Source: a virus
IMG/VR virus record: IMGVR_UViG_3300037193_002415
Location: 1-27,294 of that record
Direction: 5' to 3' (one strand)
DNA: 27,294 nt
Position numbers and translations under genes: made by a program
Shown here: one piece after another, positions 1-27,294 of the stretch
Numbering within the stretch: the first letter of the stretch is position 1
How the letters are laid out: every line of letters starts with the position of its first letter
The notes under the pieces: model-generated
What the model saw: the letters and a program-made list of their open reading frames with translations, nothing else
Told to the model about the DNA's origin: nothing
The model's database searches: none

Positions 1-1
1 G

Positions 2-517
2 TCGTTGATGGTGCCGTTCGATACGGGCGATCTGCAGGCATCTGGATCTCTACAGATTGGTGAGCACGATGACGCGACCGACATCGGCGCCATGGGGCGC
101 AAGGTTGGTCGAGGTCTTCGTGACGGAGAGCTGGCGGTTGGTGCTGGTGAAGGCTTCGGTAGCAGCCTCGGCATGCTGTCGCAGATGTCGGCGTCGTCGA
201 TCGAGCGTAAGCCGATCAAGACTTACAACATCGTCTATACGGACGGCAAGGCGTGGTTTGTTCACGAATACGAACAGGACTACAAGCAGGCCGGTGAACC
301 GACAACCTCACACCCTGGCTCCATGACGGTGCCCGACAGCGAGGGGCGCCGGCGCGGCACGAAATATCTGGAACGCGCCGTCAACGAAGTGGCGCCCAGC
401 TACCCGGACTGGGTGGCCAAGGAAATCGAAGCTACGCTGGCGTCGTTGAAACCGCCTCCGGCTCCACCCAAGCCTACGTTCGATGCTCGTCCGCGTCTGG
501 TCAAGAAGGTGAAGTGA
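2..517 (+). CDS. HK97-gp10-like neck/tail-completion protein, 5'-truncated
   Basis: The frame is open to the edge of the window, so the real start probably lies outside and only about 171 residues are visible. The first residues include VPFDTGDL, the 'VP-x-DTG-x-L' signature of HK97-gp10-like head-tail connector proteins; in that family it normally sits some 30-50 residues from the start, which supports truncation. Further on, YNIVYTDGKAWFVHEYE and KYLERAVNE fit the family's strand-rich core and C-terminal helix. Members act at the neck, where head meets tail. The C-terminus is a Pro-rich, basic tail. The stop overlaps the start of the next gene (TGATG), so the two are probably translationally coupled. 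The TTG at 5 or ATG at 8 could be read as starts, but they would remove the expected N-terminal helix. Confidence 0.7.
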   Translation, partial: SLMVPFDTGDLQASGSLQIGEHDDATDIGAMGRKVGRGLRDGELAVGAGEGFGSSLGMLSQMSASSIERKPIKTYNIVYTDGKAWFVHEYEQDYKQAGEPTTSHPGSMTVPDSEGRRRGTKYLERAVNEVAPSYPDWVAKEIEATLASLKPPPAPPKPTFDARPRLVKKVK

Positions 518-930
518 TGGCGTCCCTTGCTGCACTGATCATGACGAAACTGGCCGCTGACGTGCCCGCTATCGTCAACACGGACGCGGGTCGCAACATT
601 TTCAAGACCAAGTGGCCTAACCTGCCGCACACAGCTGTCAAGGTCGACACTAACCCAGGAAAGGGGTTTCATCGCGTCATGCGGGGCGGCGGGTCCGGTA
701 TTGCAGCCGAGAATCATGCGCTGCAAGTCATGTGGCGGGCATTCGACCTGGAGGATGGCGATGCGTTGGGCAAGCTGATCTTCGCGTCGTTGGACAACTT
801 CGTTGGCACCATTAGTGGTGTGCGCTTCTTGCACATTGTGGCCAATCATCCGCCGGCTCCCCTTGGGGAAGACGAGTCACGTCGCATGATGTGGTCAGTC
901 AACTTCGACGTAAAGAAGGAAGTCGGCTAA
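517..930 (+). CDS. Putative tail terminator / minor capsid-type protein
   Basis: 137 residues. ATG at 517 overlaps the upstream stop as TGATG and follows AAGAAGG at 503-509, so I prefer it to the GTG at 514. The protein has an N-terminal helix, then GKGFHRVMRGGG followed by a strand-helix-strand section (HALQVMWRAFDLEDGDALGK) and a C-terminal strand with RRMMWSVNFDV. This layout, the length, and the position between a gp10-like protein and the tail-tube genes match the small tail-terminator or 'minor capsid' proteins of siphophages, which cap the tail tube and join it to the neck. The assignment rests on synteny and overall pattern; no catalytic motif exists to check. The stop TAA overlaps the ATG of the next gene. 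Confidence 0.55.
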   Translation: MASLAALIMTKLAADVPAIVNTDAGRNIFKTKWPNLPHTAVKVDTNPGKGFHRVMRGGGSGIAAENHALQVMWRAFDLEDGDALGKLIFASLDNFVGTISGVRFLHIVANHPPAPLGEDESRRMMWSVNFDVKKEVG

Positions 931-1232
931 TGAATCGGGAGCTTACACTGGATGTCATTCGGGCTCAGCTGGCCATGGCGAAAAATGCTTTGGCGACAGC
1001 CAGCATCTGTATCGCCACGGTCGAGCGTATTCTGGCTCACCAGGTGCCGGATACGCCCGATCCCAAAGACGAACCAGCCGATGAAGAAGAAAGTAACGAG
1101 GGAACCGAAAATTCTGCCCTCGTAACTCCGGAAACGTGCGATCACCCTCGTCAGTGTCGCATGTCAGCCAAGGTGATGGGGAAGCCAAATCGCTGGCTCT
1201 GCACGCGGTGCGGCGGTAACTTCGACGAGTAG
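930..1232 (+). CDS. Small protein with putative C-terminal Cys/His zinc site
   Basis: 100 residues, not recognised. The ATG at 930 overlaps the upstream stop (TAATG) and has AGAAGGA at 914-920 as ribosome site. A longer frame from 891 would overlap the upstream gene by 40 nt and is less likely. Residues 1-36 form a predicted amphipathic helix, 38-62 are an acidic Pro/Glu-rich linker (DTPDPKDEPADEEE), and 70-96 carry C70, H72, C76, C91 and C94 ending in LCTRCGG, which looks like half of a zinc ribbon with an irregular first knuckle. Its place inside the neck/tail block suggests a virion or assembly role, but it could equally be an inserted accessory gene. No function is claimed. Confidence 0.7.
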   Translation: MNRELTLDVIRAQLAMAKNALATASICIATVERILAHQVPDTPDPKDEPADEEESNEGTENSALVTPETCDHPRQCRMSAKVMGKPNRWLCTRCGGNFDE

Positions 1233-1244
1233 AGGAGACGGTCA

Positions 1245-1712
1245 ATGTCAAAGCTTCGTTCGTATCGCAACGTGTCGGCTGTTCCACTGGAGATCTGCGA
1301 GGTCGGCAAGCCGATCAAGCACCGGGTGCGAGTCGAGCCCGGAGAGATCTCCCCGCTGGTTCGAGTCTCGGATGCCTGGCATCGCTACATCACGGAGACG
1401 ACCGGGTTCGCCCAGCTCATGGACGAGCAGGAAGTTCAGGACGACGTGCCCGAAGGCTACGTCGAGACGACGGGTGTCGGCGACGTGCGGCGCCGGTTCC
1501 GTCCGATGAACGCGGTCGAGCGTGAGGCGGCGGGCCTTGCACCGCTGCCGTCGACGAAGACCGAACCGCTGCCCGCCGTGGTGGTCAAGCCCTCGAACGC
1601 CGTGCGTGGGCCGGCCACGCCAACTCCGCCTGCTCCCCCGGCGCCGACGCCTGCCCCGGCAGCCGCTCCCGCGTCTCCGGCCGGCAACGACACCGTGGTC
1701 GTCAAGAAGTAG
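1245..1712 (+). CDS. Hypothetical neck/tail-region protein with Pro/Ala-rich C-terminal tail
   Basis: 155 residues. ATG at 1245 has AGGAGA at 1233-1238, six bases upstream. Residues 1-95 look folded and strand-rich (VPLEICEV, HRVRVEPGE, DAWHRYITET). Residues about 98-147 are low complexity, dominated by Pro, Ala and Thr (TPTPPAPPAPTPAPAAAP), and the end is VVVKK. A short globular domain followed by a flexible Pro/Ala tail just upstream of the tail-tube genes would suit an accessory virion protein, but I do not recognise a family. The GC content rises in the low-complexity section because of Pro and Ala codons; I see no sign that it is a separate insertion. Confidence 0.65.
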   Translation: MSKLRSYRNVSAVPLEICEVGKPIKHRVRVEPGEISPLVRVSDAWHRYITETTGFAQLMDEQEVQDDVPEGYVETTGVGDVRRRFRPMNAVEREAAGLAPLPSTKTEPLPAVVVKPSNAVRGPATPTPPAPPAPTPAPAAAPASPAGNDTVVVKK

Positions 1713-1722
1713 GAGGTAAGCA

Positions 1723-2436
1723 ATGGCGACTGAAGTCCTGACGAATTGCAAAATTCTTCTGGGTGGCTACAACCTGTCCGGGTATCACAACGGTCTCGAG
1801 ATCACGCATGGTGCGGAGATGCTCGATGACACGGTATTCGGAACGTCAGGGACGAGGTCGGCCAAGCCGGGTCTCAAGAACTTCGAGGCCAACGGAAACG
1901 TCTTCTTCGACACAACCCTTGACGGAGTGATCTACGACCGTATCGGCGCGGTTCGAGAAGTGATGTCGTATGCCATGGTCGGCGAAGCCCATGGCGATGT
2001 CACGTTCTTCATTCGAGGCATCAACGGCACTTACAATCCGTTGTCGGGTGAAGTCGGCGCGCTTCTGCAGTCGGAGTTCACGGCGCGTAGCTCGAACGCA
2101 CCGCTGGTGCGTGGACGCCTGTTCGTGCCCGATGGCACGCCCATTACCACCGGCAGTGCCACGGCACTGCAGTTGGGCGCTGTCAGCGCAACGCAGCGTG
2201 TGTATTGCGCGATCCATGTCACCAGCGTTTCGGGTGGCGGATCGGCGACGTTCACGCTGCAGAGCGACAACGCGGTCGGATTCCCCTCGGGCACGACCCA
2301 GGCGACCAGCACGGCGTTCACCGCCATCGGGGCACAGTGGTTGGAAGTCTTGGGGCCAATCACGGACGACTGGTGGAGAGTCGGTTACACCATTTCAGGA
2401 ACGGTCACGGCTTTCGTGTCCGTGGGCATCATCTAG
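1723..2436 (+). CDS. Major tail-tube protein (long paralogue)
   Basis: 237 residues, started by ATG with a near-perfect AGGAGGT at 1711-1717, as expected for a highly expressed structural gene. Residues 31-53 contain EMLDDTVFGTSG followed by TRSAKPGLKN, which matches the 'D-x-T-x-F-G ... GL-x-(D/N)' loop common in siphophage tail-tube subunits; it is followed by strands NGNVFFD. Residues about 140-237 add a second strand-rich section (YCAIHVTSVSGGGSATFTLQSD ... WWRVGYTISGT) typical of longer tail-tube proteins. Subunits would stack as rings around the tape measure to form the tube lumen. The next gene is a shorter relative, aligned without gaps through residue 53. Either one could be the main tube protein; this one has the stronger ribosome site. 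Confidence 0.8.
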   Translation: MATEVLTNCKILLGGYNLSGYHNGLEITHGAEMLDDTVFGTSGTRSAKPGLKNFEANGNVFFDTTLDGVIYDRIGAVREVMSYAMVGEAHGDVTFFIRGINGTYNPLSGEVGALLQSEFTARSSNAPLVRGRLFVPDGTPITTGSATALQLGAVSATQRVYCAIHVTSVSGGGSATFTLQSDNAVGFPSGTTQATSTAFTAIGAQWLEVLGPITDDWWRVGYTISGTVTAFVSVGII

Positions 2437-2451
2437 GAAGGAGACGTTTCA

Positions 2452-2880
2452 ATGGCTACGCTCGTCTACACGGATGCGACCATCGTGGTCAACTCGATCG
2501 ACCTGTCGGACCACTGCCGATCGCTGACCCTCAACTACGAGGCCGAGATGCTCGACGATACCGTCATGGGCACCAGCGGCACGCGCTCGGCGAAGCCGGG
2601 TCTGAAGAACTGGAGTCTCGAGGTCGAGTTCCTTCAGGATTTCGACGCCGCCAACGTCGATGCCACGCTGTTTCCGCTGGTGGGGGCCGACTCGTTCCCC
2701 GTCGCGGTCAAGCCCACGTCGGGCGCTATCGCTGCGACCAACCCCGAATACTCGGGGAATGCGGTGCTCGAGAGCTACACCCCGATCCAGGGCGAAGTGG
2801 GCACGCTGGCGACCACGCCGGCGACGTTCCGCGCGGGCGGCGGCGCGGCGAACGTTCTGGTGCGCGACACGACGCCTTAG
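2452..2880 (+). CDS. Tail-tube-like protein (short paralogue)
   Basis: 142 residues. ATG follows AAGGAG at 2438-2443, and the gap to the upstream gene is only 15 nt. Residues 31-53 are identical to those of the preceding protein except residue 39 (Met for Phe), and the motif sits at exactly the same distance from the start, so the two are paralogues. This copy lacks the C-terminal section of about 95 residues. The core continues with WSLEVEFLQDFD and ends in a short strand-rich part (FRAGGGAANVLVRD). It may be a second tube subunit, a tube-end protein, or the main subunit with the longer gene as its decorated form. An intrinsic terminator follows 25 nt after the stop. Confidence 0.75.
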   Translation: MATLVYTDATIVVNSIDLSDHCRSLTLNYEAEMLDDTVMGTSGTRSAKPGLKNWSLEVEFLQDFDAANVDATLFPLVGADSFPVAVKPTSGAIAATNPEYSGNAVLESYTPIQGEVGTLATTPATFRAGGGAANVLVRDTTP

Positions 2881-2905
2881 TTCGCGCCTAAGGCACTTTC
2901 GATGT

Positions 2906-2941
2906 CCGGGTCGGGGGTTGGGCCACCCCGGCCCGGATTTT
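2906..2941 (+). terminator. Intrinsic terminator after the tail-tube genes
   Basis: An 11-bp stem pairs 2906-2916 with 2926-2936 (one T-G wobble at 2911/2931) around a 9-nt loop and is followed at once by ATTTT (2937-2941). The stem is nearly all G-C. It lies in the longest gap within the packed operon (2881-2973), directly behind the two tube genes. It would end or reduce transcription so that tube proteins are made in excess over the chaperone, tape measure and tip genes. The T-run is short, so partial read-through is likely; I see no clear promoter between it and 2974. Confidence 0.65.
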
Positions 2942-2973
2942 CACTGTAAGGTCCAAAGAAAGCGACGAAGGTA

Positions 2974-3426
2974 ATGGCAATCACCTCGACCCCGTTCAAG
3001 ATGTTCGAGCCGTTCGATCCCAAGGGCACCAAGCGCAGCTTGCGCTTCGATGTCAATGCGCTCGCCGACTTCGAACAGGAATCCGGCATGGGCGTCTCCC
3101 AGCTGATGGCCACCAAGGCTGTCTGGGCCGCCACGCGCGCCCTGCTGTGGGCCGGTCTGAAACACGAAGAGCCTGGACTGACGATGGATCGCGTTGGCGA
3201 TCTGATGGGCCGGTTCGTCAAGTCTGGCAACAACGTCAACGAACTTCTGGTCGAGGCGCTCGCCGCATGTCAGGAGCAGGGTGCGTTCGGTGCGCCCGAC
3301 GAGGAAGCGGCGGGAAAGCTCCGAGGCGCTCGCGACCGCTTCATCGCGCTGGCGTCGGCACCCGACAGCGAAGCAACCTCCGACGATCTGTCGGTGTTGG
3401 ACGTTACGCCGACGAAACCCAACTGA
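2974..3426 (+). CDS. Tail assembly chaperone, unshifted product (G-type)
   Basis: 150 residues. ATG at 2974 has a modest ribosome site (GAAGG at 2967-2971). The sequence RSLRFDVNALADFEQESGMGVSQLM (residues 21-45), followed by LLWAGLKHEEPGLTMDRVGDLM (57-78), is typical of the N-terminal domain of siphophage tail assembly chaperones that act like lambda gpG. These proteins are not in the virion; they coat the tape measure and help the tube subunits polymerise. Residues 101-150 are a hydrophilic, partly acidic extension (PDSEATSDDLSVLDV). The codons for G114-K115 form the lambda-type slippery heptamer that gives the longer product. Placement directly before the tape measure gene is the conserved one. 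Confidence 0.85.
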   Translation: MAITSTPFKMFEPFDPKGTKRSLRFDVNALADFEQESGMGVSQLMATKAVWAATRALLWAGLKHEEPGLTMDRVGDLMGRFVKSGNNVNELLVEALAACQEQGAFGAPDEEAAGKLRGARDRFIALASAPDSEATSDDLSVLDVTPTKPN

Positions 3427-3710
3427 CCTGGACGCAGTGGGTCAAGAAAATCAAGCCCATTGCGTATGGCGCGCTAGAGTTGAAGCCGTGGGAGTTACCG
3501 TTCCTGACTCCTGGGGAGATCAACGAACTGATCGACGGGTATGAGTGGCGGTTGAATCGGCAGATGGAACGCGAAGCAAAGTGGGTCTGCGCGATCATCA
3601 ACGGCACGGGGCGGCTGAAGCAGGCAGTGCGTCCGGAGCGTTTGTTGGGTCGGCCGTTGGGGCCGCAAAACGACGCACTGGCGCGTGGTGAACGTCCGAG
3701 CAAGAAGTAG
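2974..3710 (+). CDS. Tail assembly chaperone, -1 frameshift product (GT-type)
   Basis: Predicted 245-residue fusion: residues 1-115 are shared with the unshifted product, then ribosomes slip back one base at G GGA AAG (3312-3318) and read from 3318 (GCT CCG AGG) to the TAG at 3708. The first 40 shifted residues are Arg-rich and look unstructured. The rest is a real domain: WTQWVKKIKPIAYGALEL, then LPFLTPGEINELIDGYEWRL and WVCAIINGTG, which matches the short helical T domain found in GT-type chaperones ('LTP-x-E' plus a Trp-rich helix). In lambda the T domain contacts the tube subunit while G holds the tape measure. No independent start with a good ribosome site is seen for this downstream frame, which supports frameshifting. 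Confidence 0.8.
3312..3318 (+). promoter_or_regulatory. Programmed -1 ribosomal frameshift site (G GGA AAG)
   Basis: The heptamer GGGAAAG is the one used by lambda genes G/T. It lies in the correct frame: 3313-3315 and 3316-3318 are the G114 and K115 codons, with the leading G as the third base of the codon before. The downstream frame needed is exactly -1 relative to the first. A small hairpin (CGCGA 3331-3335 with TCGCG 3344-3348) begins 12 nt further on and might help, but in DNA this GC-rich it may be chance. Unlike lambda, where slipping happens a few codons before the stop, the unshifted frame continues for another 35 codons here. Confidence 0.75.
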
Positions 3711-3721
3711 GGGACACCAGT

Positions 3722-6700
3722 ATGGCCACCATCGGCCAGTTGCTTGTCAGTGTAGGCGTCAACGCATCCGGCGTGGCGGCCGGGTTGCGAGAAGCCGAGA
3801 CGAATATCGAGCGCTTCGGCACCCGATTGTTCTTTCTTGGCTCTCGCATCAGTGCTGGTGTTACGATTCCGCTCGGTATTGCCATGGGGGCGGTCGCGAA
3901 GTTTGGCCTTGAATTCGACAAGGCTATGACCGAGTCGACCGCCATCATGGGCGACATGAGCGCCAGCCTCCGTCGTCAGATGGAGGACGTTGCGCTCTCG
4001 ATTTCCAAGACGACAAAGTTCTCGGCAAAAGAAGCCGCGGAGGCCTATTACGATTTGGCGTCGGCGGGCTTCTCTGCAAAGGACTCGATGGCATCGTTGG
4101 GCACCGTCGCCACGTTCGCCCAGGCCGGTGTCATCGATTTGTCCAAGGCCGGCGAATACCTGGCCACGACGGTGCAGGGTGTTGGCCTGAAGATGTTGGG
4201 CGTGACCGATAACGTGGCTGGCCTCCAGAAGATGTCGGACCTTCTGGTGACGGCCAACAACGCGGCCGTCGGCACGACCGAGGATTTCGCAAAGGCGCTG
4301 ATCAATACCAAGGGTGCGCTTCGCGCCTACAACGTCACGGCCGAACAGGGGTTGGCCGCCCTGATGGCCTTTGCGCAGGGCGGCATCACGGGTGCCAAGG
4401 CCGGCACGCAGTTGCTGATGGTCCTTCGCGACATGCAGACCGTCAGCATTCGTCACGCCGAGAATTGGAAGAAGCAGGGGCTCGCCGTCTACGAGACGAA
4501 TGGCGCCATGCGGGATCTGGGAGCTATTATCCGAGATCTCGAGAACAAAATGGCTGACATGTCCGTCCAGCAGCGGCGCGTGTTGTTGAATCTGTTGGGT
4601 TTCCCTGATCGTTCCAAGCAGGCCACGATGGCACTGCTGGGATTCGGCAACGAGATGGAGCGGTTCAACAAGCTCCTCGATCATGCGGCTGGCGCTTCCA
4701 TGGACGTGGCGGCAAAGCAGATGGGCGCCATGTCGAACCAGCTACTGTCGTTGCGGCACCAGTTTGAAGCCTTGGTCATTCAGTTGGGCCGTGAGCTGGT
4801 TCCGGTCGTCAACGATTACCTGATTCCTGCCCTGAAGAAGGGCATTGAGATTTTTGGCTCGTTCGTCCGATGGTTCGGCACACTGTCCACCGAAGTCAAG
4901 GCGGCCATGGTCGTCGTGGTAGGTTTCGGGGCAGCATTGGGGCCAGCCATTGCCATCACTGGGTCCTGGATGCTGGCGCTCCGGGGGCTCAGTGGCATCT
5001 TCTCCGGATTGTTGGGCACCGTCGGTCTGGCAACGAAGGCCATTCACTCGATGAGTGCCGCATCGGCCCAGTCCGCGATTGCCAGTCAGGCTGCCGCCGC
5101 TGCCGCTGCCGCACAGGCCGCCGCAGTGCAGGCGACGTTTGCCAAGTCCGCCGTATCCGCCTCGTCGCCGTTGGCGGCAGCGGCCCAGGCGAATGCGGCG
5201 TTCAAGACATCGCTGCAGACGGTTGCCCCCGTCGCTGCAACAGCCGCAACATCCATCGCCGCCACAGGGACCGCTGCGACGACCGCCGCCGGGGGCGTCA
5301 CGTTGCTGAGCCGTGCGGTGACGTTCATGCTGGGGCCGTGGGGGCTGGCGATCGGGGCAGTTACGGCACTGGGTATCGCGCTGTATCAGATGTATACGGC
5401 CGAGTCGAAGCTCGCCTCCCAGTTGAGCAGCGAGGGACGGGAGACGTTCGAAAAGCGCACACGACAGCTGGAAACCGCCGTCGCCATGTATGAGGCGATG
5501 AATGGTCAGACCAAGCGCACGCAGGCGGAACAGATGGCGCTGGACGCCTCTACCCGCATGCTGGCTGACGCATCAAGCCTCAGTTCAAAGGCATTCAAGG
5601 AAGAAGAAGAGCGGTCAAAGTCGCTCACCAATGAACTGAAGAATCAGGCCGTAGAGCGTCGGAAACTACTGACGTTCATGCGCGAACAGCGCTTGGCAGA
5701 AGTTGCGGCGGCCGAAGCAGAGCTTCAGGCGATTCAGGCTCGCATCGATGAGGTCATGGCGGGGCGAGCCAAGCGGATTGAAGTGGGGCCGGGCGGGTTG
5801 TCCACGTTGGTTCCGTTCTCTGTAGAGGAACGTAGCCAGTCGTTGATTGCGCTGAATAACCACCTTGAAGAGGCCACACGTCGTTTCAACGAACTGAAAA
5901 GGGCCGCTGGCTTCCGTGGCGATGACATCAAGCTTGGGCCGGACCCTGCAGTAAGACCTCCGGCGACACCGACTCCGGGCATGCCTACGTCGCCCAAGGA
6001 GAAGATTGAGCTCCTCGACAAGTTCAAGAAGGAGCTTGCACAGCTTGACGAGGCCTTGAAAATCAATTTCGCTGCCGGCAACACGGGCGGCGAACGACTG
6101 ATGTTGATGTTCGAGGAATACGGCTCCAAGGTTGAGGACGCCGCCCGTCGCACCAAAATCTGGGGGTTGGCTACCTCCGATGTCTTCCAGGCCTATGAGC
6201 TCGGGTTCCGAGTCATCAAGGAAGACAAGGCGATGGAAAAAATCTGGGAAGACATCCAGAAGCTCTCCCAGGTGTCGGACGAGCCGTTGAAGAAGCTCTT
6301 CGAGGAATTCGCCAAGGTCGATGAAGAGCGTGAGAAGATGATGCAGAAGGCCATGGACTTTGAGTTCCGTCTGAACTCTCAGTTCATGACCGCATCGGAT
6401 GCGCGCATCGCCCAAATCGAAAAGGAACGTCAGAAAGAGCTGGATGCGGCCGAAACGAAGTATTCGGCCAATGCCGAGATGCGCGACCGCGTTCGTGCGG
6501 CCATCAATGCTTTCTACGATTTCGAGACCAAGAAAGCGAAGGGCACCGCCGATGCGATTGTCCAGCGGATGAAGGACGCCGGTGTTCAGACCGCCAAGGC
6601 TATGGATGAAGCCGCTGCTGACATGAAGCGCGACTTCAACCAGATGCGAGAGACCGGCCAATATACGGCTAACACATTGTGGCAGGCGTTCAAGAAGTGG

Positions 6701-8845
6701 TTCGACCAGATGAACGCCAGCAATCCGTTCGTTCAGGTCAACTCCCAGTTGAGTGAGCTGTCCAGCGCATTCTCCAACCTGTCGCAAGTGGCTGGTGATT
6801 CGTTTGGCGGCTTTGCCAAGTCCGTTGGCGAGATTATCTCGGGCATGTCGCTGATGGGCACGGCGGCAAACCGAGTTGTCGAAAACTTGGTCCGTATGGA
6901 CAAAGGTTTCGAGTCTCTAAAGAACAACGCCAAGGGCGCCGGCGGCGAAATTGCAGCCAGCTTTATCGGGCTGGCCAGCGGATTGATCAGCGGCATCAGC
7001 GGCATGATGCAGGCCACGGGCGGCGCCTCCCTGGGCAAGAACATGCTGGGCGGCGCGTTGTCCGGCGCCATGATGGGCGGCACCGTCGCCTACGGCGCTG
7101 CTATGGCCGCCGGCATGGCCAAGGGCGCAGCCATGGCGGGCGTGTGGGGCGCCGTAGCGGGCGCCATCGTCGGAATCATCGTCGCCGTGTTCCGAGGACG
7201 CGAGACGCGCAGCATCATGAAGCGCGTCGGCCACGAATGGGGCCAGGACATTTCCCAGGGATTGGCCGAGGGCATTAAGGCCATGATGCGGGATGAGAAC
7301 CTGTCTCGCACGGCCGCGACCTTGATGAACATGGACAAGATCATCGAGGAGGCCGGTGGTCTGAACGAGCTGAACTTCGACAAGTTCATCGGTAAGCTTC
7401 GTGACGTGTTCGTCGAATTGGAGACGGGCGGCCTGACCGCGGCACAAGCCACGCACGTGTTGAACGAGAACTTCCAGACGTTTGCTAACGTCATCGTCAA
7501 CTCTGGGCGTGTGGCAACCAAGGAATTTGCCGAAATCCTCAAGTTGGTCCGCGAGACTGGCTTGGAAGTTGCCGCCATCACGGAATTCATCGCCGCCCAG
7601 ACCGAGCGGTTTGGCGGAGCCATGGCGACTGTGGCCGGCGCTGCAGGCGAGAAATATGCGGGCCTTGCCGACGAAATTAAGGGCGCCCAGGATGCCCTGA
7701 AAGAGCTCGACAAGCAGCGTCTCGAGGCCATGGGCGGTAAGTCCGAGGGCGACCTCGGCGTCGAGGATCAGCAGAAACTGGCCGACATCGACAAGGAGCG
7801 TGCCGAACTTCAGGCCAAGTTGGCCGAGCTTCAGAAGAAACAGACCGAGGGCGCCGCCGCCATGCGTGGTGAGATGGAGCGTATTGGCCTGATTACGATG
7901 GCCGGTTTCAACGCCTCGATGGAGAACGGCGTCGGTGTCATTCAGGCGTTTAGTTCAATCCAGCCGGCCGTTCAGGCATTGAAGCAGGCGTATACCGACC
8001 TTGGACTCGAGGCCGACAACGCCGCCATCAAGCAGCTGTTCCTGATCGACGAGCTCATGACCAAGCAGCCGGCGCTGGTCAATGGCGTGGGCGCCATGGG
8101 CGAGGCGATGCTGGCGCTGTCGAACATCGGCGGTTTGAATGCCGAAACGTTCGCGCTGATGCAGGAACAGGGCATGGCGATGTATGACCGGCTGCAGGCC
8201 GAGGCGCAGGCCCTCGGCATCGATCAGTCGTTCGCCGTCAAGGCAATGATTCCGTTCTTGGAAGCAGTGCTGTCCGCGAACGAGGAATACGGCTTCGTTA
8301 TCGACGAGAACACGCAGAAGCTTATCAACCAGGCACGGGAGATGGGCCTGCTCAAGGAAAAGGAGTTGTCCACCAACGACATCCTCATGGAAGGGTTCTC
8401 GGCGATCATCGAAGCCTTGGGCGGCGAAATTCCGCAGGCATGGAGGGACATGGCGGAGGAGGCCAAGAACTCCATGGACGATGTGCGGGGCAAAGCCGAG
8501 GATGTGTTCGAGGACTTCCCGCAGCCGCCGCCCATTGTCATCGACTGGGAATGGGGCGACCGTCCGCCCTGGGACGAGGATTACGATCCGCCGTCGCGCC
8601 CGCCGAACACGAACAACGGCCCCGATGTGCCCGAGATGGCCGAGGGCGGCGTCGTGCGTCGTCGCACGTTGGCCTACATCGGGGAGCGCGGTCCCGAGGC
8701 CGTTATTCCGCTGTCGTCGGGGCTTGATTTCGGGGACCGGGAACCCATCGTTACGAACGTTTACTTGGATGGCCGTAAGGTGTCGCTAAGCAATGCGCGG
8801 CACATGCCGGGGGTATTGCGCGTGCGGGGCATCAACACGCGGTGA
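3722..8845 (+). CDS. Tape measure protein
   Basis: 1707 residues, the longest gene, right after the chaperone pair. ATG at 3722 follows AGGGG (3709-3713). Residues about 60-370 match the TP901-type tape measure core (EFDKAMTESTAIMGD, AAEAYYDLASAGFSAKDSM, LSKAGEYLATTVQGVGLKM). Hydrophobic sections lie near 394-436 and 534-554, with an Ala-rich stretch between (445-530), and a Gly/Ala/Met-rich hydrophobic zone near 1073-1160; such segments are thought to help DNA cross the host membrane. Coiled coils are likely near 628-678 and 1315-1381. The end carries a Pro/Trp-rich linker and GGVVRRRTLAYIGERGPEAVIPL, the usual C-terminal 'GE-x-GPEAVIPL' motif. At about 1.5 angstrom per residue this implies a tail near 250 nm (inference). 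Confidence 0.95.
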   Translation: MATIGQLLVSVGVNASGVAAGLREAETNIERFGTRLFFLGSRISAGVTIPLGIAMGAVAKFGLEFDKAMTESTAIMGDMSASLRRQMEDVALSISKTTKFSAKEAAEAYYDLASAGFSAKDSMASLGTVATFAQAGVIDLSKAGEYLATTVQGVGLKMLGVTDNVAGLQKMSDLLVTANNAAVGTTEDFAKALINTKGALRAYNVTAEQGLAALMAFAQGGITGAKAGTQLLMVLRDMQTVSIRHAENWKKQGLAVYETNGAMRDLGAIIRDLENKMADMSVQQRRVLLNLLGFPDRSKQATMALLGFGNEMERFNKLLDHAAGASMDVAAKQMGAMSNQLLSLRHQFEALVIQLGRELVPVVNDYLIPALKKGIEIFGSFVRWFGTLSTEVKAAMVVVVGFGAALGPAIAITGSWMLALRGLSGIFSGLLGTVGLATKAIHSMSAASAQSAIASQAAAAAAAAQAAAVQATFAKSAVSASSPLAAAAQANAAFKTSLQTVAPVAATAATSIAATGTAATTAAGGVTLLSRAVTFMLGPWGLAIGAVTALGIALYQMYTAESKLASQLSSEGRETFEKRTRQLETAVAMYEAMNGQTKRTQAEQMALDASTRMLADASSLSSKAFKEEEERSKSLTNELKNQAVERRKLLTFMREQRLAEVAAAEAELQAIQARIDEVMAGRAKRIEVGPGGLSTLVPFSVEERSQSLIALNNHLEEATRRFNELKRAAGFRGDDIKLGPDPAVRPPATPTPGMPTSPKEKIELLDKFKKELAQLDEALKINFAAGNTGGERLMLMFEEYGSKVEDAARRTKIWGLATSDVFQAYELGFRVIKEDKAMEKIWEDIQKLSQVSDEPLKKLFEEFAKVDEEREKMMQKAMDFEFRLNSQFMTASDARIAQIEKERQKELDAAETKYSANAEMRDRVRAAINAFYDFETKKAKGTADAIVQRMKDAGVQTAKAMDEAAADMKRDFNQMRETGQYTANTLWQAFKKWFDQMNASNPFVQVNSQLSELSSAFSNLSQVAGDSFGGFAKSVGEIISGMSLMGTAANRVVENLVRMDKGFESLKNNAKGAGGEIAASFIGLASGLISGISGMMQATGGASLGKNMLGGALSGAMMGGTVAYGAAMAAGMAKGAAMAGVWGAVAGAIVGIIVAVFRGRETRSIMKRVGHEWGQDISQGLAEGIKAMMRDENLSRTAATLMNMDKIIEEAGGLNELNFDKFIGKLRDVFVELETGGLTAAQATHVLNENFQTFANVIVNSGRVATKEFAEILKLVRETGLEVAAITEFIAAQTERFGGAMATVAGAAGEKYAGLADEIKGAQDALKELDKQRLEAMGGKSEGDLGVEDQQKLADIDKERAELQAKLAELQKKQTEGAAAMRGEMERIGLITMAGFNASMENGVGVIQAFSSIQPAVQALKQAYTDLGLEADNAAIKQLFLIDELMTKQPALVNGVGAMGEAMLALSNIGGLNAETFALMQEQGMAMYDRLQAEAQALGIDQSFAVKAMIPFLEAVLSANEEYGFVIDENTQKLINQAREMGLLKEKELSTNDILMEGFSAIIEALGGEIPQAWRDMAEEAKNSMDDVRGKAEDVFEDFPQPPPIVIDWEWGDRPPWDEDYDPPSRPPNTNNGPDVPEMAEGGVVRRRTLAYIGERGPEAVIPLSSGLDFGDREPIVTNVYLDGRKVSLSNARHMPGVLRVRGINTR

Positions 8846-8851
8846 AGGACC

Positions 8852-11641: not shown

Positions 11642-11650
11642 AGGTGAACC

Positions 11651-11947: not shown

Positions 11948-11951
11948 CGAA

Positions 11952-12966: not shown

Positions 12967-12983
12967 GTGGTAACATCGTTCCG

Positions 12984-15343: not shown

Positions 15344-15347
15344 TTCG

Positions 15348-15644
15348 CTACCTCGGCGTATTCTTGGCAATGGCAATCGACGCGATGTCCAGCGACTTTG
15401 CCGTCTTTTGCTGTTCGCCGATCACCATGTCGAATAGCCGATTGCGCTCGTCCACCAGACCTTCGATTCGCTTGTCCTTGTCATCCAACCGGGCCTGGTA
15501 ATACTTCTCCATGTTGGTAAACTCCTGTCTCCAGAGGAGTTCCCCCTTCCGCAGCAACCAGATAACGGTCAGCAATGCGGCAGTGAGGCCGCCCTCAAGA
15601 ATCCAACCAGTAAACCACTCGAACGTGACGGGTGTGCCGTTCAT
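15348..15644 (-). CDS. Membrane/coiled-coil lysis-region protein (mirror copy)
   Basis: Reverse-complement copy of the 98-residue protein at 11651-11947, with one N-terminal membrane helix and a charged coiled-coil tail. Confidence 0.62.
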   Translation of the reverse strand: MNGTPVTFEWFTGWILEGGLTAALLTVIWLLRKGELLWRQEFTNMEKYYQARLDDKDKRIEGLVDERNRLFDMVIGEQQKTAKSLDIASIAIAKNTPR

Positions 15645-15653
15645 GGTTCACCT

Positions 15654-18443: not shown

Positions 18444-18449
18444 GGTCCT

Positions 18450-21400
18450 TCACCGCGTGTTGATGCCCCGCACGCGCAATACCCCCGGCATGTGCCGCGC
18501 ATTGCTTAGCGACACCTTACGGCCATCCAAGTAAACGTTCGTAACGATGGGTTCCCGGTCCCCGAAATCAAGCCCCGACGACAGCGGAATAACGGCCTCG
18601 GGACCGCGCTCCCCGATGTAGGCCAACGTGCGACGACGCACGACGCCGCCCTCGGCCATCTCGGGCACATCGGGGCCGTTGTTCGTGTTCGGCGGGCGCG
18701 ACGGCGGATCGTAATCCTCGTCCCAGGGCGGACGGTCGCCCCATTCCCAGTCGATGACAATGGGCGGCGGCTGCGGGAAGTCCTCGAACACATCCTCGGC
18801 TTTGCCCCGCACATCGTCCATGGAGTTCTTGGCCTCCTCCGCCATGTCCCTCCATGCCTGCGGAATTTCGCCGCCCAAGGCTTCGATGATCGCCGAGAAC
18901 CCTTCCATGAGGATGTCGTTGGTGGACAACTCCTTTTCCTTGAGCAGGCCCATCTCCCGTGCCTGGTTGATAAGCTTCTGCGTGTTCTCGTCGATAACGA
19001 AGCCGTATTCCTCGTTCGCGGACAGCACTGCTTCCAAGAACGGAATCATTGCCTTGACGGCGAACGACTGATCGATGCCGAGGGCCTGCGCCTCGGCCTG
19101 CAGCCGGTCATACATCGCCATGCCCTGTTCCTGCATCAGCGCGAACGTTTCGGCATTCAAACCGCCGATGTTCGACAGCGCCAGCATCGCCTCGCCCATG
19201 GCGCCCACGCCATTGACCAGCGCCGGCTGCTTGGTCATGAGCTCGTCGATCAGGAACAGCTGCTTGATGGCGGCGTTGTCGGCCTCGAGTCCAAGGTCGG
19301 TATACGCCTGCTTCAATGCCTGAACGGCCGGCTGGATTGAACTAAACGCCTGAATGACACCGACGCCGTTCTCCATCGAGGCGTTGAAACCGGCCATCGT
19401 AATCAGGCCAATACGCTCCATCTCACCACGCATGGCGGCGGCGCCCTCGGTCTGTTTCTTCTGAAGCTCGGCCAACTTGGCCTGAAGTTCGGCACGCTCC
19501 TTGTCGATGTCGGCCAGTTTCTGCTGATCCTCGACGCCGAGGTCGCCCTCGGACTTACCGCCCATGGCCTCGAGACGCTGCTTGTCGAGCTCTTTCAGGG
19601 CATCCTGGGCGCCCTTAATTTCGTCGGCAAGGCCCGCATATTTCTCGCCTGCAGCGCCGGCCACAGTCGCCATGGCTCCGCCAAACCGCTCGGTCTGGGC
19701 GGCGATGAATTCCGTGATGGCGGCAACTTCCAAGCCAGTCTCGCGGACCAACTTGAGGATTTCGGCAAATTCCTTGGTTGCCACACGCCCAGAGTTGACG
19801 ATGACGTTAGCAAACGTCTGGAAGTTCTCGTTCAACACGTGCGTGGCTTGTGCCGCGGTCAGGCCGCCCGTCTCCAATTCGACGAACACGTCACGAAGCT
19901 TACCGATGAACTTGTCGAAGTTCAGCTCGTTCAGACCACCGGCCTCCTCGATGATCTTGTCCATGTTCATCAAGGTCGCGGCCGTGCGAGACAGGTTCTC
20001 ATCCCGCATCATGGCCTTAATGCCCTCGGCCAATCCCTGGGAAATGTCCTGGCCCCATTCGTGGCCGACGCGCTTCATGATGCTGCGCGTCTCGCGTCCT
20101 CGGAACACGGCGACGATGATTCCGACGATGGCGCCCGCTACGGCGCCCCACACGCCCGCCATGGCTGCGCCCTTGGCCATGCCGGCGGCCATAGCAGCGC
20201 CGTAGGCGACGGTGCCGCCCATCATGGCGCCGGACAACGCGCCGCCCAGCATGTTCTTGCCCAGGGAGGCGCCGCCCGTGGCCTGCATCATGCCGCTGAT
20301 GCCGCTGATCAATCCGCTGGCCAGCCCGATAAAGCTGGCTGCAATTTCGCCGCCGGCGCCCTTGGCGTTGTTCTTTAGAGACTCGAAACCTTTGTCCATA
20401 CGGACCAAGTTTTCGACAACTCGGTTTGCCGCCGTGCCCATCAGCGACATGCCCGAGATAATCTCGCCAACGGACTTGGCAAAGCCGCCAAACGAATCAC
20501 CAGCCACTTGCGACAGGTTGGAGAATGCGCTGGACAGCTCACTCAACTGGGAGTTGACCTGAACGAACGGATTGCTGGCGTTCATCTGGTCGAACCACTT
20601 CTTGAACGCCTGCCACAATGTGTTAGCCGTATATTGGCCGGTCTCTCGCATCTGGTTGAAGTCGCGCTTCATGTCAGCAGCGGCTTCATCCATAGCCTTG
20701 GCGGTCTGAACACCGGCGTCCTTCATCCGCTGGACAATCGCATCGGCGGTGCCCTTCGCTTTCTTGGTCTCGAAATCGTAGAAAGCATTGATGGCCGCAC
20801 GAACGCGGTCGCGCATCTCGGCATTGGCCGAATACTTCGTTTCGGCCGCATCCAGCTCTTTCTGACGTTCCTTTTCGATTTGGGCGATGCGCGCATCCGA
20901 TGCGGTCATGAACTGAGAGTTCAGACGGAACTCAAAGTCCATGGCCTTCTGCATCATCTTCTCACGCTCTTCATCGACCTTGGCGAATTCCTCGAAGAGC
21001 TTCTTCAACGGCTCGTCCGACACCTGGGAGAGCTTCTGGATGTCTTCCCAGATTTTTTCCATCGCCTTGTCTTCCTTGATGACTCGGAACCCGAGCTCAT
21101 AGGCCTGGAAGACATCGGAGGTAGCCAACCCCCAGATTTTGGTGCGACGGGCGGCGTCCTCAACCTTGGAGCCGTATTCCTCGAACATCAACATCAGTCG
21201 TTCGCCGCCCGTGTTGCCGGCAGCGAAATTGATTTTCAAGGCCTCGTCAAGCTGTGCAAGCTCCTTCTTGAACTTGTCGAGGAGCTCAATCTTCTCCTTG
21301 GGCGACGTAGGCATGCCCGGAGTCGGTGTCGCCGGAGGTCTTACTGCAGGGTCCGGCCCAAGCTTGATGTCATCGCCACGGAAGCCAGCGGCCCTTTTCA

Positions 21401-23573
21401 GTTCGTTGAAACGACGTGTGGCCTCTTCAAGGTGGTTATTCAGCGCAATCAACGACTGGCTACGTTCCTCTACAGAGAACGGAACCAACGTGGACAACCC
21501 GCCCGGCCCCACTTCAATCCGCTTGGCTCGCCCCGCCATGACCTCATCGATGCGAGCCTGAATCGCCTGAAGCTCTGCTTCGGCCGCCGCAACTTCTGCC
21601 AAGCGCTGTTCGCGCATGAACGTCAGTAGTTTCCGACGCTCTACGGCCTGATTCTTCAGTTCATTGGTGAGCGACTTTGACCGCTCTTCTTCTTCCTTGA
21701 ATGCCTTTGAACTGAGGCTTGATGCGTCAGCCAGCATGCGGGTAGAGGCGTCCAGCGCCATCTGTTCCGCCTGCGTGCGCTTGGTCTGACCATTCATCGC
21801 CTCATACATGGCGACGGCGGTTTCCAGCTGTCGTGTGCGCTTTTCGAACGTCTCCCGTCCCTCGCTGCTCAACTGGGAGGCGAGCTTCGACTCGGCCGTA
21901 TACATCTGATACAGCGCGATACCCAGTGCCGTAACTGCCCCGATCGCCAGCCCCCACGGCCCCAGCATGAACGTCACCGCACGGCTCAGCAACGTGACGC
22001 CCCCGGCGGCGGTCGTCGCAGCGGTCCCTGTGGCGGCGATGGATGTTGCGGCTGTTGCAGCGACGGGGGCAACCGTCTGCAGCGATGTCTTGAACGCCGC
22101 ATTCGCCTGGGCCGCTGCCGCCAACGGCGACGAGGCGGATACGGCGGACTTGGCAAACGTCGCCTGCACTGCGGCGGCCTGTGCGGCAGCGGCAGCGGCG
22201 GCAGCCTGACTGGCAATCGCGGACTGGGCCGATGCGGCACTCATCGAGTGAATGGCCTTCGTTGCCAGACCGACGGTGCCCAACAATCCGGAGAAGATGC
22301 CACTGAGCCCCCGGAGCGCCAGCATCCAGGACCCAGTGATGGCAATGGCTGGCCCCAATGCTGCCCCGAAACCTACCACGACGACCATGGCCGCCTTGAC
22401 TTCGGTGGACAGTGTGCCGAACCATCGGACGAACGAGCCAAAAATCTCAATGCCCTTCTTCAGGGCAGGAATCAGGTAATCGTTGACGACCGGAACCAGC
22501 TCACGGCCCAACTGAATGACCAAGGCTTCAAACTGGTGCCGCAACGACAGTAGCTGGTTCGACATGGCGCCCATCTGCTTTGCCGCCACGTCCATGGAAG
22601 CGCCAGCCGCATGATCGAGGAGCTTGTTGAACCGCTCCATCTCGTTGCCGAATCCCAGCAGTGCCATCGTGGCCTGCTTGGAACGATCAGGGAAACCCAA
22701 CAGATTCAACAACACGCGCCGCTGCTGGACGGACATGTCAGCCATTTTGTTCTCGAGATCTCGGATAATAGCTCCCAGATCCCGCATGGCGCCATTCGTC
22801 TCGTAGACGGCGAGCCCCTGCTTCTTCCAATTCTCGGCGTGACGAATGCTGACGGTCTGCATGTCGCGAAGGACCATCAGCAACTGCGTGCCGGCCTTGG
22901 CACCCGTGATGCCGCCCTGCGCAAAGGCCATCAGGGCGGCCAACCCCTGTTCGGCCGTGACGTTGTAGGCGCGAAGCGCACCCTTGGTATTGATCAGCGC
23001 CTTTGCGAAATCCTCGGTCGTGCCGACGGCCGCGTTGTTGGCCGTCACCAGAAGGTCCGACATCTTCTGGAGGCCAGCCACGTTATCGGTCACGCCCAAC
23101 ATCTTCAGGCCAACACCCTGCACCGTCGTGGCCAGGTATTCGCCGGCCTTGGACAAATCGATGACACCGGCCTGGGCGAACGTGGCGACGGTGCCCAACG
23201 ATGCCATCGAGTCCTTTGCAGAGAAGCCCGCCGACGCCAAATCGTAATAGGCCTCCGCGGCTTCTTTTGCCGAGAACTTTGTCGTCTTGGAAATCGAGAG
23301 CGCAACGTCCTCCATCTGACGACGGAGGCTGGCGCTCATGTCGCCCATGATGGCGGTCGACTCGGTCATAGCCTTGTCGAATTCAAGGCCAAACTTCGCG
23401 ACCGCCCCCATGGCAATACCGAGCGGAATCGTAACACCAGCACTGATGCGAGAGCCAAGAAAGAACAATCGGGTGCCGAAGCGCTCGATATTCGTCTCGG
23501 CTTCTCGCAACCCGGCCGCCACGCCGGATGCGTTGACGCCTACACTGACAAGCAACTGGCCGATGGTGGCCAT
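18450..23573 (-). CDS. Tape measure protein (mirror copy)
   Basis: Reverse-complement copy of the 1707-residue tape measure at 3722-8845, with the TP901-type core and the C-terminal GERGPEAVIPL motif. A phage keeping two identical 5.1-kb tape measure genes head to head would be unprecedented to my knowledge and unstable. Confidence 0.9.
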   Translation of the reverse strand: MATIGQLLVSVGVNASGVAAGLREAETNIERFGTRLFFLGSRISAGVTIPLGIAMGAVAKFGLEFDKAMTESTAIMGDMSASLRRQMEDVALSISKTTKFSAKEAAEAYYDLASAGFSAKDSMASLGTVATFAQAGVIDLSKAGEYLATTVQGVGLKMLGVTDNVAGLQKMSDLLVTANNAAVGTTEDFAKALINTKGALRAYNVTAEQGLAALMAFAQGGITGAKAGTQLLMVLRDMQTVSIRHAENWKKQGLAVYETNGAMRDLGAIIRDLENKMADMSVQQRRVLLNLLGFPDRSKQATMALLGFGNEMERFNKLLDHAAGASMDVAAKQMGAMSNQLLSLRHQFEALVIQLGRELVPVVNDYLIPALKKGIEIFGSFVRWFGTLSTEVKAAMVVVVGFGAALGPAIAITGSWMLALRGLSGIFSGLLGTVGLATKAIHSMSAASAQSAIASQAAAAAAAAQAAAVQATFAKSAVSASSPLAAAAQANAAFKTSLQTVAPVAATAATSIAATGTAATTAAGGVTLLSRAVTFMLGPWGLAIGAVTALGIALYQMYTAESKLASQLSSEGRETFEKRTRQLETAVAMYEAMNGQTKRTQAEQMALDASTRMLADASSLSSKAFKEEEERSKSLTNELKNQAVERRKLLTFMREQRLAEVAAAEAELQAIQARIDEVMAGRAKRIEVGPGGLSTLVPFSVEERSQSLIALNNHLEEATRRFNELKRAAGFRGDDIKLGPDPAVRPPATPTPGMPTSPKEKIELLDKFKKELAQLDEALKINFAAGNTGGERLMLMFEEYGSKVEDAARRTKIWGLATSDVFQAYELGFRVIKEDKAMEKIWEDIQKLSQVSDEPLKKLFEEFAKVDEEREKMMQKAMDFEFRLNSQFMTASDARIAQIEKERQKELDAAETKYSANAEMRDRVRAAINAFYDFETKKAKGTADAIVQRMKDAGVQTAKAMDEAAADMKRDFNQMRETGQYTANTLWQAFKKWFDQMNASNPFVQVNSQLSELSSAFSNLSQVAGDSFGGFAKSVGEIISGMSLMGTAANRVVENLVRMDKGFESLKNNAKGAGGEIAASFIGLASGLISGISGMMQATGGASLGKNMLGGALSGAMMGGTVAYGAAMAAGMAKGAAMAGVWGAVAGAIVGIIVAVFRGRETRSIMKRVGHEWGQDISQGLAEGIKAMMRDENLSRTAATLMNMDKIIEEAGGLNELNFDKFIGKLRDVFVELETGGLTAAQATHVLNENFQTFANVIVNSGRVATKEFAEILKLVRETGLEVAAITEFIAAQTERFGGAMATVAGAAGEKYAGLADEIKGAQDALKELDKQRLEAMGGKSEGDLGVEDQQKLADIDKERAELQAKLAELQKKQTEGAAAMRGEMERIGLITMAGFNASMENGVGVIQAFSSIQPAVQALKQAYTDLGLEADNAAIKQLFLIDELMTKQPALVNGVGAMGEAMLALSNIGGLNAETFALMQEQGMAMYDRLQAEAQALGIDQSFAVKAMIPFLEAVLSANEEYGFVIDENTQKLINQAREMGLLKEKELSTNDILMEGFSAIIEALGGEIPQAWRDMAEEAKNSMDDVRGKAEDVFEDFPQPPPIVIDWEWGDRPPWDEDYDPPSRPPNTNNGPDVPEMAEGGVVRRRTLAYIGERGPEAVIPLSSGLDFGDREPIVTNVYLDGRKVSLSNARHMPGVLRVRGINTR

Positions 23574-23584
23574 ACTGGTGTCCC

Positions 23585-24321
23585 CTACTTCTTGCTCGGA
23601 CGTTCACCACGCGCCAGTGCGTCGTTTTGCGGCCCCAACGGCCGACCCAACAAACGCTCCGGACGCACTGCCTGCTTCAGCCGCCCCGTGCCGTTGATGA
23701 TCGCGCAGACCCACTTTGCTTCGCGTTCCATCTGCCGATTCAACCGCCACTCATACCCGTCGATCAGTTCGTTGATCTCCCCAGGAGTCAGGAACGGTAA
23801 CTCCCACGGCTTCAACTCTAGCGCGCCATACGCAATGGGCTTGATTTTCTTGACCCACTGCGTCCAGGTCAGTTGGGTTTCGTCGGCGTAACGTCCAACA
23901 CCGACAGATCGTCGGAGGTTGCTTCGCTGTCGGGTGCCGACGCCAGCGCGATGAAGCGGTCGCGAGCGCCTCGGAGCTTTCCCGCCGCTTCCTCGTCGGG
24001 CGCACCGAACGCACCCTGCTCCTGACATGCGGCGAGCGCCTCGACCAGAAGTTCGTTGACGTTGTTGCCAGACTTGACGAACCGGCCCATCAGATCGCCA
24101 ACGCGATCCATCGTCAGTCCAGGCTCTTCGTGTTTCAGACCGGCCCACAGCAGGGCGCGCGTGGCGGCCCAGACAGCCTTGGTGGCCATCAGCTGGGAGA
24201 CGCCCATGCCGGATTCCTGTTCGAAGTCGGCGAGCGCATTGACATCGAAGCGCAAGCTGCGCTTGGTGCCCTTGGGATCGAACGGCTCGAACATCTTGAA
24301 CGGGGTCGAGGTGATTGCCAT
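23585..24321 (-). CDS. GT-type tail assembly chaperone, -1 frameshift product (mirror copy)
   Basis: Reverse-complement copy of the 245-residue fusion predicted at 2974-3710. The shift occurs at the mirrored heptamer 23977-23983 and the T-domain ends at the stop whose last base is 23585. Confidence 0.75.
23869..24321 (-). CDS. G-type tail assembly chaperone (mirror copy)
   Basis: Reverse-complement copy of the 150-residue unshifted chaperone at 2974-3426. Confidence 0.8.
   Translation of the reverse strand: MAITSTPFKMFEPFDPKGTKRSLRFDVNALADFEQESGMGVSQLMATKAVWAATRALLWAGLKHEEPGLTMDRVGDLMGRFVKSGNNVNELLVEALAACQEQGAFGAPDEEAAGKLRGARDRFIALASAPDSEATSDDLSVLDVTPTKPN
23977..23983 (-). promoter_or_regulatory. 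Programmed -1 frameshift heptamer (mirror copy)
   Basis: GGGAAAG on the minus strand (reads CTTTCCC on +), in the same frame relation to the chaperone gene as at 3312-3318. Confidence 0.7.
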
Positions 24322-24353
24322 TACCTTCGTCGCTTTCTTTGGACCTTACAGTG

Positions 24354-24389
24354 AAAATCCGGGCCGGGGTGGCCCAACCCCCGACCCGG
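24354..24389 (-). terminator. Intrinsic terminator after the tail-tube genes (mirror copy)
   Basis: Reverse-complement copy of the 11-bp stem and short T-run at 2906-2941, acting on minus-strand transcripts that leave the tail-tube genes. Confidence 0.62.
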
Positions 24390-24414
24390 ACATCGAAAGT
24401 GCCTTAGGCGCGAA

Positions 24415-24843
24415 CTAAGGCGTCGTGTCGCGCACCAGAACGTTCGCCGCGCCGCCGCCCGCGCGGAACGTCGCCGGCGTGGTCGCCAGCGTGCCCACTT
24501 CGCCCTGGATCGGGGTGTAGCTCTCGAGCACCGCATTCCCCGAGTATTCGGGGTTGGTCGCAGCGATAGCGCCCGACGTGGGCTTGACCGCGACGGGGAA
24601 CGAGTCGGCCCCCACCAGCGGAAACAGCGTGGCATCGACGTTGGCGGCGTCGAAATCCTGAAGGAACTCGACCTCGAGACTCCAGTTCTTCAGACCCGGC
24701 TTCGCCGAGCGCGTGCCGCTGGTGCCCATGACGGTATCGTCGAGCATCTCGGCCTCGTAGTTGAGGGTCAGCGATCGGCAGTGGTCCGACAGGTCGATCG
24801 AGTTGACCACGATGGTCGCATCCGTGTAGACGAGCGTAGCCAT
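24415..24843 (-). CDS. Tail-tube-like protein, short paralogue (mirror copy)
   Basis: Reverse-complement copy of the 142-residue protein at 2452-2880. Confidence 0.7.
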   Translation of the reverse strand: MATLVYTDATIVVNSIDLSDHCRSLTLNYEAEMLDDTVMGTSGTRSAKPGLKNWSLEVEFLQDFDAANVDATLFPLVGADSFPVAVKPTSGAIAATNPEYSGNAVLESYTPIQGEVGTLATTPATFRAGGGAANVLVRDTTP

Positions 24844-24858
24844 TGAAACGTCTCCTTC

Positions 24859-25572
24859 CTAGATGATGCCCACGGACACGAAAGCCGTGACCGTTCCTGA
24901 AATGGTGTAACCGACTCTCCACCAGTCGTCCGTGATTGGCCCCAAGACTTCCAACCACTGTGCCCCGATGGCGGTGAACGCCGTGCTGGTCGCCTGGGTC
25001 GTGCCCGAGGGGAATCCGACCGCGTTGTCGCTCTGCAGCGTGAACGTCGCCGATCCGCCACCCGAAACGCTGGTGACATGGATCGCGCAATACACACGCT
25101 GCGTTGCGCTGACAGCGCCCAACTGCAGTGCCGTGGCACTGCCGGTGGTAATGGGCGTGCCATCGGGCACGAACAGGCGTCCACGCACCAGCGGTGCGTT
25201 CGAGCTACGCGCCGTGAACTCCGACTGCAGAAGCGCGCCGACTTCACCCGACAACGGATTGTAAGTGCCGTTGATGCCTCGAATGAAGAACGTGACATCG
25301 CCATGGGCTTCGCCGACCATGGCATACGACATCACTTCTCGAACCGCGCCGATACGGTCGTAGATCACTCCGTCAAGGGTTGTGTCGAAGAAGACGTTTC
25401 CGTTGGCCTCGAAGTTCTTGAGACCCGGCTTGGCCGACCTCGTCCCTGACGTTCCGAATACCGTGTCATCGAGCATCTCCGCACCATGCGTGATCTCGAG
25501 ACCGTTGTGATACCCGGACAGGTTGTAGCCACCCAGAAGAATTTTGCAATTCGTCAGGACTTCAGTCGCCAT
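24859..25572 (-). CDS. Major tail-tube protein, long paralogue (mirror copy)
   Basis: Reverse-complement copy of the 237-residue tube protein at 1723-2436, with its strong AGGAGGT ribosome site. Confidence 0.75.
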   Translation of the reverse strand: MATEVLTNCKILLGGYNLSGYHNGLEITHGAEMLDDTVFGTSGTRSAKPGLKNFEANGNVFFDTTLDGVIYDRIGAVREVMSYAMVGEAHGDVTFFIRGINGTYNPLSGEVGALLQSEFTARSSNAPLVRGRLFVPDGTPITTGSATALQLGAVSATQRVYCAIHVTSVSGGGSATFTLQSDNAVGFPSGTTQATSTAFTAIGAQWLEVLGPITDDWWRVGYTISGTVTAFVSVGII

Positions 25573-25582
25573 TGCTTACCTC

Positions 25583-26050
25583 CTACTTCTTGACGACCAC
25601 GGTGTCGTTGCCGGCCGGAGACGCGGGAGCGGCTGCCGGGGCAGGCGTCGGCGCCGGGGGAGCAGGCGGAGTTGGCGTGGCCGGCCCACGCACGGCGTTC
25701 GAGGGCTTGACCACCACGGCGGGCAGCGGTTCGGTCTTCGTCGACGGCAGCGGTGCAAGGCCCGCCGCCTCACGCTCGACCGCGTTCATCGGACGGAACC
25801 GGCGCCGCACGTCGCCGACACCCGTCGTCTCGACGTAGCCTTCGGGCACGTCGTCCTGAACTTCCTGCTCGTCCATGAGCTGGGCGAACCCGGTCGTCTC
25901 CGTGATGTAGCGATGCCAGGCATCCGAGACTCGAACCAGCGGGGAGATCTCTCCGGGCTCGACTCGCACCCGGTGCTTGATCGGCTTGCCGACCTCGCAG
26001 ATCTCCAGTGGAACAGCCGACACGTTGCGATACGAACGAAGCTTTGACAT
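25583..26050 (-). CDS. Hypothetical protein with Pro/Ala-rich tail (mirror copy)
   Basis: Reverse-complement copy of the 155-residue protein at 1245-1712. Confidence 0.6.
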   Translation of the reverse strand: MSKLRSYRNVSAVPLEICEVGKPIKHRVRVEPGEISPLVRVSDAWHRYITETTGFAQLMDEQEVQDDVPEGYVETTGVGDVRRRFRPMNAVEREAAGLAPLPSTKTEPLPAVVVKPSNAVRGPATPTPPAPPAPTPAPAAAPASPAGNDTVVVKK

Positions 26051-26062
26051 TGACCGTCTCCT

Positions 26063-26365
26063 CTACTCGTCGAAGTTACCGCCGCACCGCGTGCAGAGCC
26101 AGCGATTTGGCTTCCCCATCACCTTGGCTGACATGCGACACTGACGAGGGTGATCGCACGTTTCCGGAGTTACGAGGGCAGAATTTTCGGTTCCCTCGTT
26201 ACTTTCTTCTTCATCGGCTGGTTCGTCTTTGGGATCGGGCGTATCCGGCACCTGGTGAGCCAGAATACGCTCGACCGTGGCGATACAGATGCTGGCTGTC
26301 GCCAAAGCATTTTTCGCCATGGCCAGCTGAGCCCGAATGACATCCAGTGTAAGCTCCCGATTCAT
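26063..26365 (-). CDS. Small Cys/His putative zinc-site protein (mirror copy)
   Basis: Reverse-complement copy of the 100-residue protein at 930-1232; the coupled start overlaps the stop of the tail-terminator gene in the same way. Confidence 0.65.
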   Translation of the reverse strand: MNRELTLDVIRAQLAMAKNALATASICIATVERILAHQVPDTPDPKDEPADEEESNEGTENSALVTPETCDHPRQCRMSAKVMGKPNRWLCTRCGGNFDE

Positions 26366-26778
26366 TAGCCGACTTCCTTCTTTACGTCGAAGTTGACTGA
26401 CCACATCATGCGACGTGACTCGTCTTCCCCAAGGGGAGCCGGCGGATGATTGGCCACAATGTGCAAGAAGCGCACACCACTAATGGTGCCAACGAAGTTG
26501 TCCAACGACGCGAAGATCAGCTTGCCCAACGCATCGCCATCCTCCAGGTCGAATGCCCGCCACATGACTTGCAGCGCATGATTCTCGGCTGCAATACCGG
26601 ACCCGCCGCCCCGCATGACGCGATGAAACCCCTTTCCTGGGTTAGTGTCGACCTTGACAGCTGTGTGCGGCAGGTTAGGCCACTTGGTCTTGAAAATGTT
26701 GCGACCCGCGTCCGTGTTGACGATAGCGGGCACGTCAGCGGCCAGTTTCGTCATGATCAGTGCAGCAAGGGACGCCAT
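26365..26778 (-). CDS. Putative tail terminator (mirror copy)
   Basis: Reverse-complement copy of the 137-residue protein at 517-930. Confidence 0.52.
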   Translation of the reverse strand: MASLAALIMTKLAADVPAIVNTDAGRNIFKTKWPNLPHTAVKVDTNPGKGFHRVMRGGGSGIAAENHALQVMWRAFDLEDGDALGKLIFASLDNFVGTISGVRFLHIVANHPPAPLGEDESRRMMWSVNFDVKKEVG

Positions 26779-27293
26779 CACTTCACCTTCTTGACCAGAC
26801 GCGGACGAGCATCGAACGTAGGCTTGGGTGGAGCCGGAGGCGGTTTCAACGACGCCAGCGTAGCTTCGATTTCCTTGGCCACCCAGTCCGGGTAGCTGGG
26901 CGCCACTTCGTTGACGGCGCGTTCCAGATATTTCGTGCCGCGCCGGCGCCCCTCGCTGTCGGGCACCGTCATGGAGCCAGGGTGTGAGGTTGTCGGTTCA
27001 CCGGCCTGCTTGTAGTCCTGTTCGTATTCGTGAACAAACCACGCCTTGCCGTCCGTATAGACGATGTTGTAAGTCTTGATCGGCTTACGCTCGATCGACG
27101 ACGCCGACATCTGCGACAGCATGCCGAGGCTGCTACCGAAGCCTTCACCAGCACCAACCGCCAGCTCTCCGTCACGAAGACCTCGACCAACCTTGCGCCC
27201 CATGGCGCCGATGTCGGTCGCGTCATCGTGCTCACCAATCTGTAGAGATCCAGATGCCTGCAGATCGCCCGTATCGAACGGCACCATCAACGA
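26778..27293 (-). CDS. HK97-gp10-like neck protein, 5'-truncated (mirror copy)
   Basis: Reverse-complement copy of the truncated gene at 2-517. It is cut at exactly the same base as its twin, which shows that both window ends were set by one event and are not two independent genome positions. Confidence 0.65.
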   Translation of the reverse strand, partial: SLMVPFDTGDLQASGSLQIGEHDDATDIGAMGRKVGRGLRDGELAVGAGEGFGSSLGMLSQMSASSIERKPIKTYNIVYTDGKAWFVHEYEQDYKQAGEPTTSHPGSMTVPDSEGRRRGTKYLERAVNEVAPSYPDWVAKEIEATLASLKPPPAPPKPTFDARPRLVKKVK

Positions 27294-27294
27294 C

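Follow-up and report, generated by a model that had tools for sequence, protein, structure and literature searches.

The window analysed here, the whole stretch of 27,294 bases, is identical to a complete virus record of IMG/VR (G000, one contig of 27,294 bases). Its first half, arm 1, is an ordinary siphovirus segment that covers the tail and lysis region, and all genes of this arm are directed towards the centre of the window, where an axis of symmetry separates arm 1 from arm 2. The features of the window are as follows, with the genes given for arm 1.

1..13647, plus strand: arm 1, phage tail/lysis fragment, the sole real sequence information
2..517, plus strand: gene cut by the contig end, open at its 5' side, without family match
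514..930, plus strand: head-tail connector or tail terminator-like gene (PHROG 2595, E 6.8e-7; Pfam PF12691 slightly under the cut-off)
1723..2436, plus strand: major tail protein (PHROG 9522, E 3.9e-27)
2452..2880, plus strand: second major tail protein, a paralogue of the preceding one (PHROG 4574, E 5.7e-31; also PHROG 9522)
2974..3426, plus strand: tail protein preceding the tape measure, probable G-type tail assembly chaperone (PHROG 2115, E 1.2e-13)
3722..8845, plus strand: tape measure protein of 1707 aa (PHROG 1533, E 1.9e-68; PF10145)
8852..11641, plus strand: large protein right behind the tape measure, probable distal tail protein, with weak matches only and a role inferred from position
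12553..12966, plus strand: M15 peptidase, probable endolysin (PF08291, E 6.5e-18)
12939..13541, plus strand: final ORF before the axis, 200 aa, without relatives found
13636..13659: axis region CCTGGGCATCGT / ACGATGCCCAGG, centre GT/AC, zero spacer, presumed artefactual join
13648..27294, minus strand: arm 2, exact reverse complement of arm 1, adding no independent information

Major tail and tape measure genes stand in canonical order, as in a tailed phage (Caudoviricetes, siphovirus-like). This order is supported by synteny with four of the closest related loci (L025, L027, L029, and L030), in which the arrangement of five to six window genes is conserved. Small ORFs lie between the genes of the probable distal tail protein and the M15 peptidase. 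tRNA genes were not found, and the last 1.6 kb before the axis contain neither a terminator nor a sigma-70 promoter pattern.

Three further observations concern individual tail genes. The tandem pair of major tail paralogues (1723-2880) is kept in many related IMG/VR contigs as well as in actinobacterial chromosome records (L110, L111, and L112). Downstream of this pair, a second open frame, shifted by -1 relative to the chaperone ORF (2974-3426, which stops at GAAACCCAACTGA), extends to 3710, before the tape measure gene. The arrangement of the two frames (2974-3710) resembles lambda G/GT, and a programmed frameshift at the chaperone ORF is possible; no canonical slippery heptamer was seen. 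Lastly, known relatives of the 929-aa protein encoded at 8852-11641 are almost absent, the best phage match being the Methanosarcinales-associated virus BK063672 with 24% identity.

Direct comparison of the window with its own reverse complement yields 0 mismatches over 27,294 bases, with no N in the sequence. The axis of symmetry lies between positions 13647 and 13648 with a spacer of zero, and the log10 probability of such symmetry arising by chance is about -7960. Accordingly, the earlier note was right to describe the whole window as a spacer-free, perfect inverted repeat of 13,647 bp. The identical mirrored gene twins that it noted are equally real, given that exact self-reverse-complementarity places each gene in the window twice by construction. 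The mirrored twins and the identical terminal base thus reflect the single fact of exact reverse-complement identity; the base shared by both window ends, in particular, is present in any perfect palindrome and is not independent evidence. In addition, the first 600 bases of the window occur just once more, at 26695-27294 (minus strand). Within one arm, no repeated 21-mers were found, neither direct nor inverted, so that the only duplication is the fold at the axis.

We conclude, with a probability of roughly 0.95, that an uncultured siphovirus genome (or prophage) contributed a single fragment of 13,647 bases, to which its reverse complement was attached through an artefactual turn at 13647/13648. 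The real DNA almost certainly lacks this giant palindrome. Besides the lack of any difference between the 13.6-kb arms and of other repeats within an arm, two lines of evidence support this reading. The first comes from relatives. A search of IMG/VR that used aligned sequences of the second major tail protein gathered 80 loci with identities of at most 68%, and the comparison set comprised approximately 100 related loci (~0.96 Mb). No inverted repeat was detected in this set with a seed of 28 bases, and the longest spacer-free palindrome among these loci measures 22 bp. Inverted repeats were also absent from three entire related contigs that are each joined from two pieces (20-base seed). The tail-tube pair is likewise found in chromosome records of Actinomadura, Lentzea, and Rhizocola, and the available flanks of these three actinobacterial loci contain no inverted repeats either. 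Related genomes consequently carry the region without inverted duplication, with the limit that none of them aligns at the axis itself.

The second line of evidence is provided by the ends of the contig. In L025, which is among the nearest relatives, genes for the major head protein, the protease, and the portal stand upstream of the connector gene. L025 therefore continues into head genes where the window stops within a gene, which identifies position 1 as the end of a fragment rather than of a genome. Both arguments bear on the possibility that virions or cells truly contain a head-to-head dimer or an inverted duplication, to which we assign next to no probability. The contig itself is the sole witness for such a molecule, both copies of which would have to end in the same truncated gene; moreover, none of the compared relatives contains an inverted repeat, and cells would not be expected to maintain a perfect, spacer-free palindrome of 13.6 kb stably. 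The cause favored by the earlier note, a fold-back of chimeric or assembly origin, is best supported: relatives carry the tail module without inverted repeat, the contig ends inside a gene, and the same defect has been described for other assemblies (PMC9455707, PMC12755884).

The sequence beyond the axis was sought in several ways. IMG/VR contains no exact match to the 32 bases before the axis and no close relatives of the tape measure protein, the distal tail protein, or the last ORF. DNA-level searches of phages and plasmids returned nothing useful, and the last 709 bases matched phage records at the DNA level only over 32 bases, at chance level. As no relative close enough for alignment across the axis emerged from the IMG/VR, phage, and plasmid searches, the true continuation beyond 13647 could not be located. 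A hairpin immediately before the axis (CCAGGG-N8-CCCTGG, 13621-13640) was considered as the cause of the turn and rejected, since its folding energy is unexceptional (z -1.72) and it would leave a spacer.

These searches also bear on a biological origin of the axis, joined strands at a molecule end, which the earlier note gave as its less likely cause. The axis would then be the covalently closed hairpin that terminates a linear phage (or plasmid-prophage) of the N15 type, from an unsampled lineage, and the assembler would have read around it. Hairpin ends of N15-type telomere phages, when read through, would give exact zero-spacer palindromes, and such an end would look the same as the axis seen here. 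Unlike in N15, however, no telomere resolvase was found in the arm, nor was a replication gene, although the arm is a fragment of 13.6 kb, and the outer ends of the window are truncated. In addition, the last 709 bases lack similarity to phage records beyond the chance-level match, and no end of this kind accompanies the tail module in relatives, albeit none of them aligns at the axis. We see no positive sign of a hairpin end and regard it as highly improbable.

For the artefactual turn, what is observed is an exact symmetry that relatives lack, together with a gene cut at the contig ends, while the route that led to the turn can only be inferred. The process would start from a spacer-free palindrome at the turn point, which may be native and short or stem from a few chimeric fold-back reads. 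Such a palindrome would generate a self-reverse-complementary k-mer, at which an assembler that holds both strands as one graph may follow the outbound path along one strand and return along the opposite one; the same coverage break would then stop both sides of the walked path. In a toy graph built on the arm, the self-conjugate join arises once a palindrome in the reads reaches a length of k+1 bases. Against this graph route, natural palindromes in relatives reach at most 22 bp, and could seed a fold-back only at k=21, the smallest commonly used value.

Alternatively, the fold-back may predate assembly and have been made at the bench, through amplification snap-back or a sequencing adapter that was missed. 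This sub-case of the artefact explanation is plausible, at somewhat under even odds. In a snap-back during amplification, a short native palindrome would form the turning point, its four central bases GTAC serving as the loop, and copying would lead to an identical sequence outcome. A native palindrome of 8-12 bases with this loop would give a zero-spacer product; as GTAC is itself self-complementary, the zero spacer is not evidence against snap-back. Whole-genome amplification yields many palindromic reads, which are common after multiple displacement amplification (PMC13265396, PMC6218980). The sequence, though, holds nothing that separates a bench-made fold-back from one made by the assembler.

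For either route of the artefactual turn, the consequences for the record are the same. Its length, gene counts, and length-based completeness estimates are inflated twofold; arm 1 is usable as a genome fragment, while arm 2 is to be discarded before use. The palindrome thus matters as data hygiene and not as a biological structure. Comparing each record of a virus database with its own reverse complement is trivial and would reveal such cases.

Whole-contig palindromes have been described as an assembly error in M. bovis assemblies, where 81 contigs were affected (PMC9455707), and in cyanobacterial single-cell assemblies (PMC12755884). The present contig resembles these cases in that the full contig is one palindrome with exact mirror halves and reverse-complement gene duplicates. 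In contrast to those contigs, which stem from bacterial isolate and single-cell assemblies, the present sequence is an IMG/VR virus record. Within this database, contigs with repeated genomes have been classified by CheckV as probable artefacts (PMC8116208), and they share with our record that sequence is present more than once and that assembly is blamed. However, the CheckV cases are repeated or concatenated genomes, whereas the present record is a mirrored fragment.
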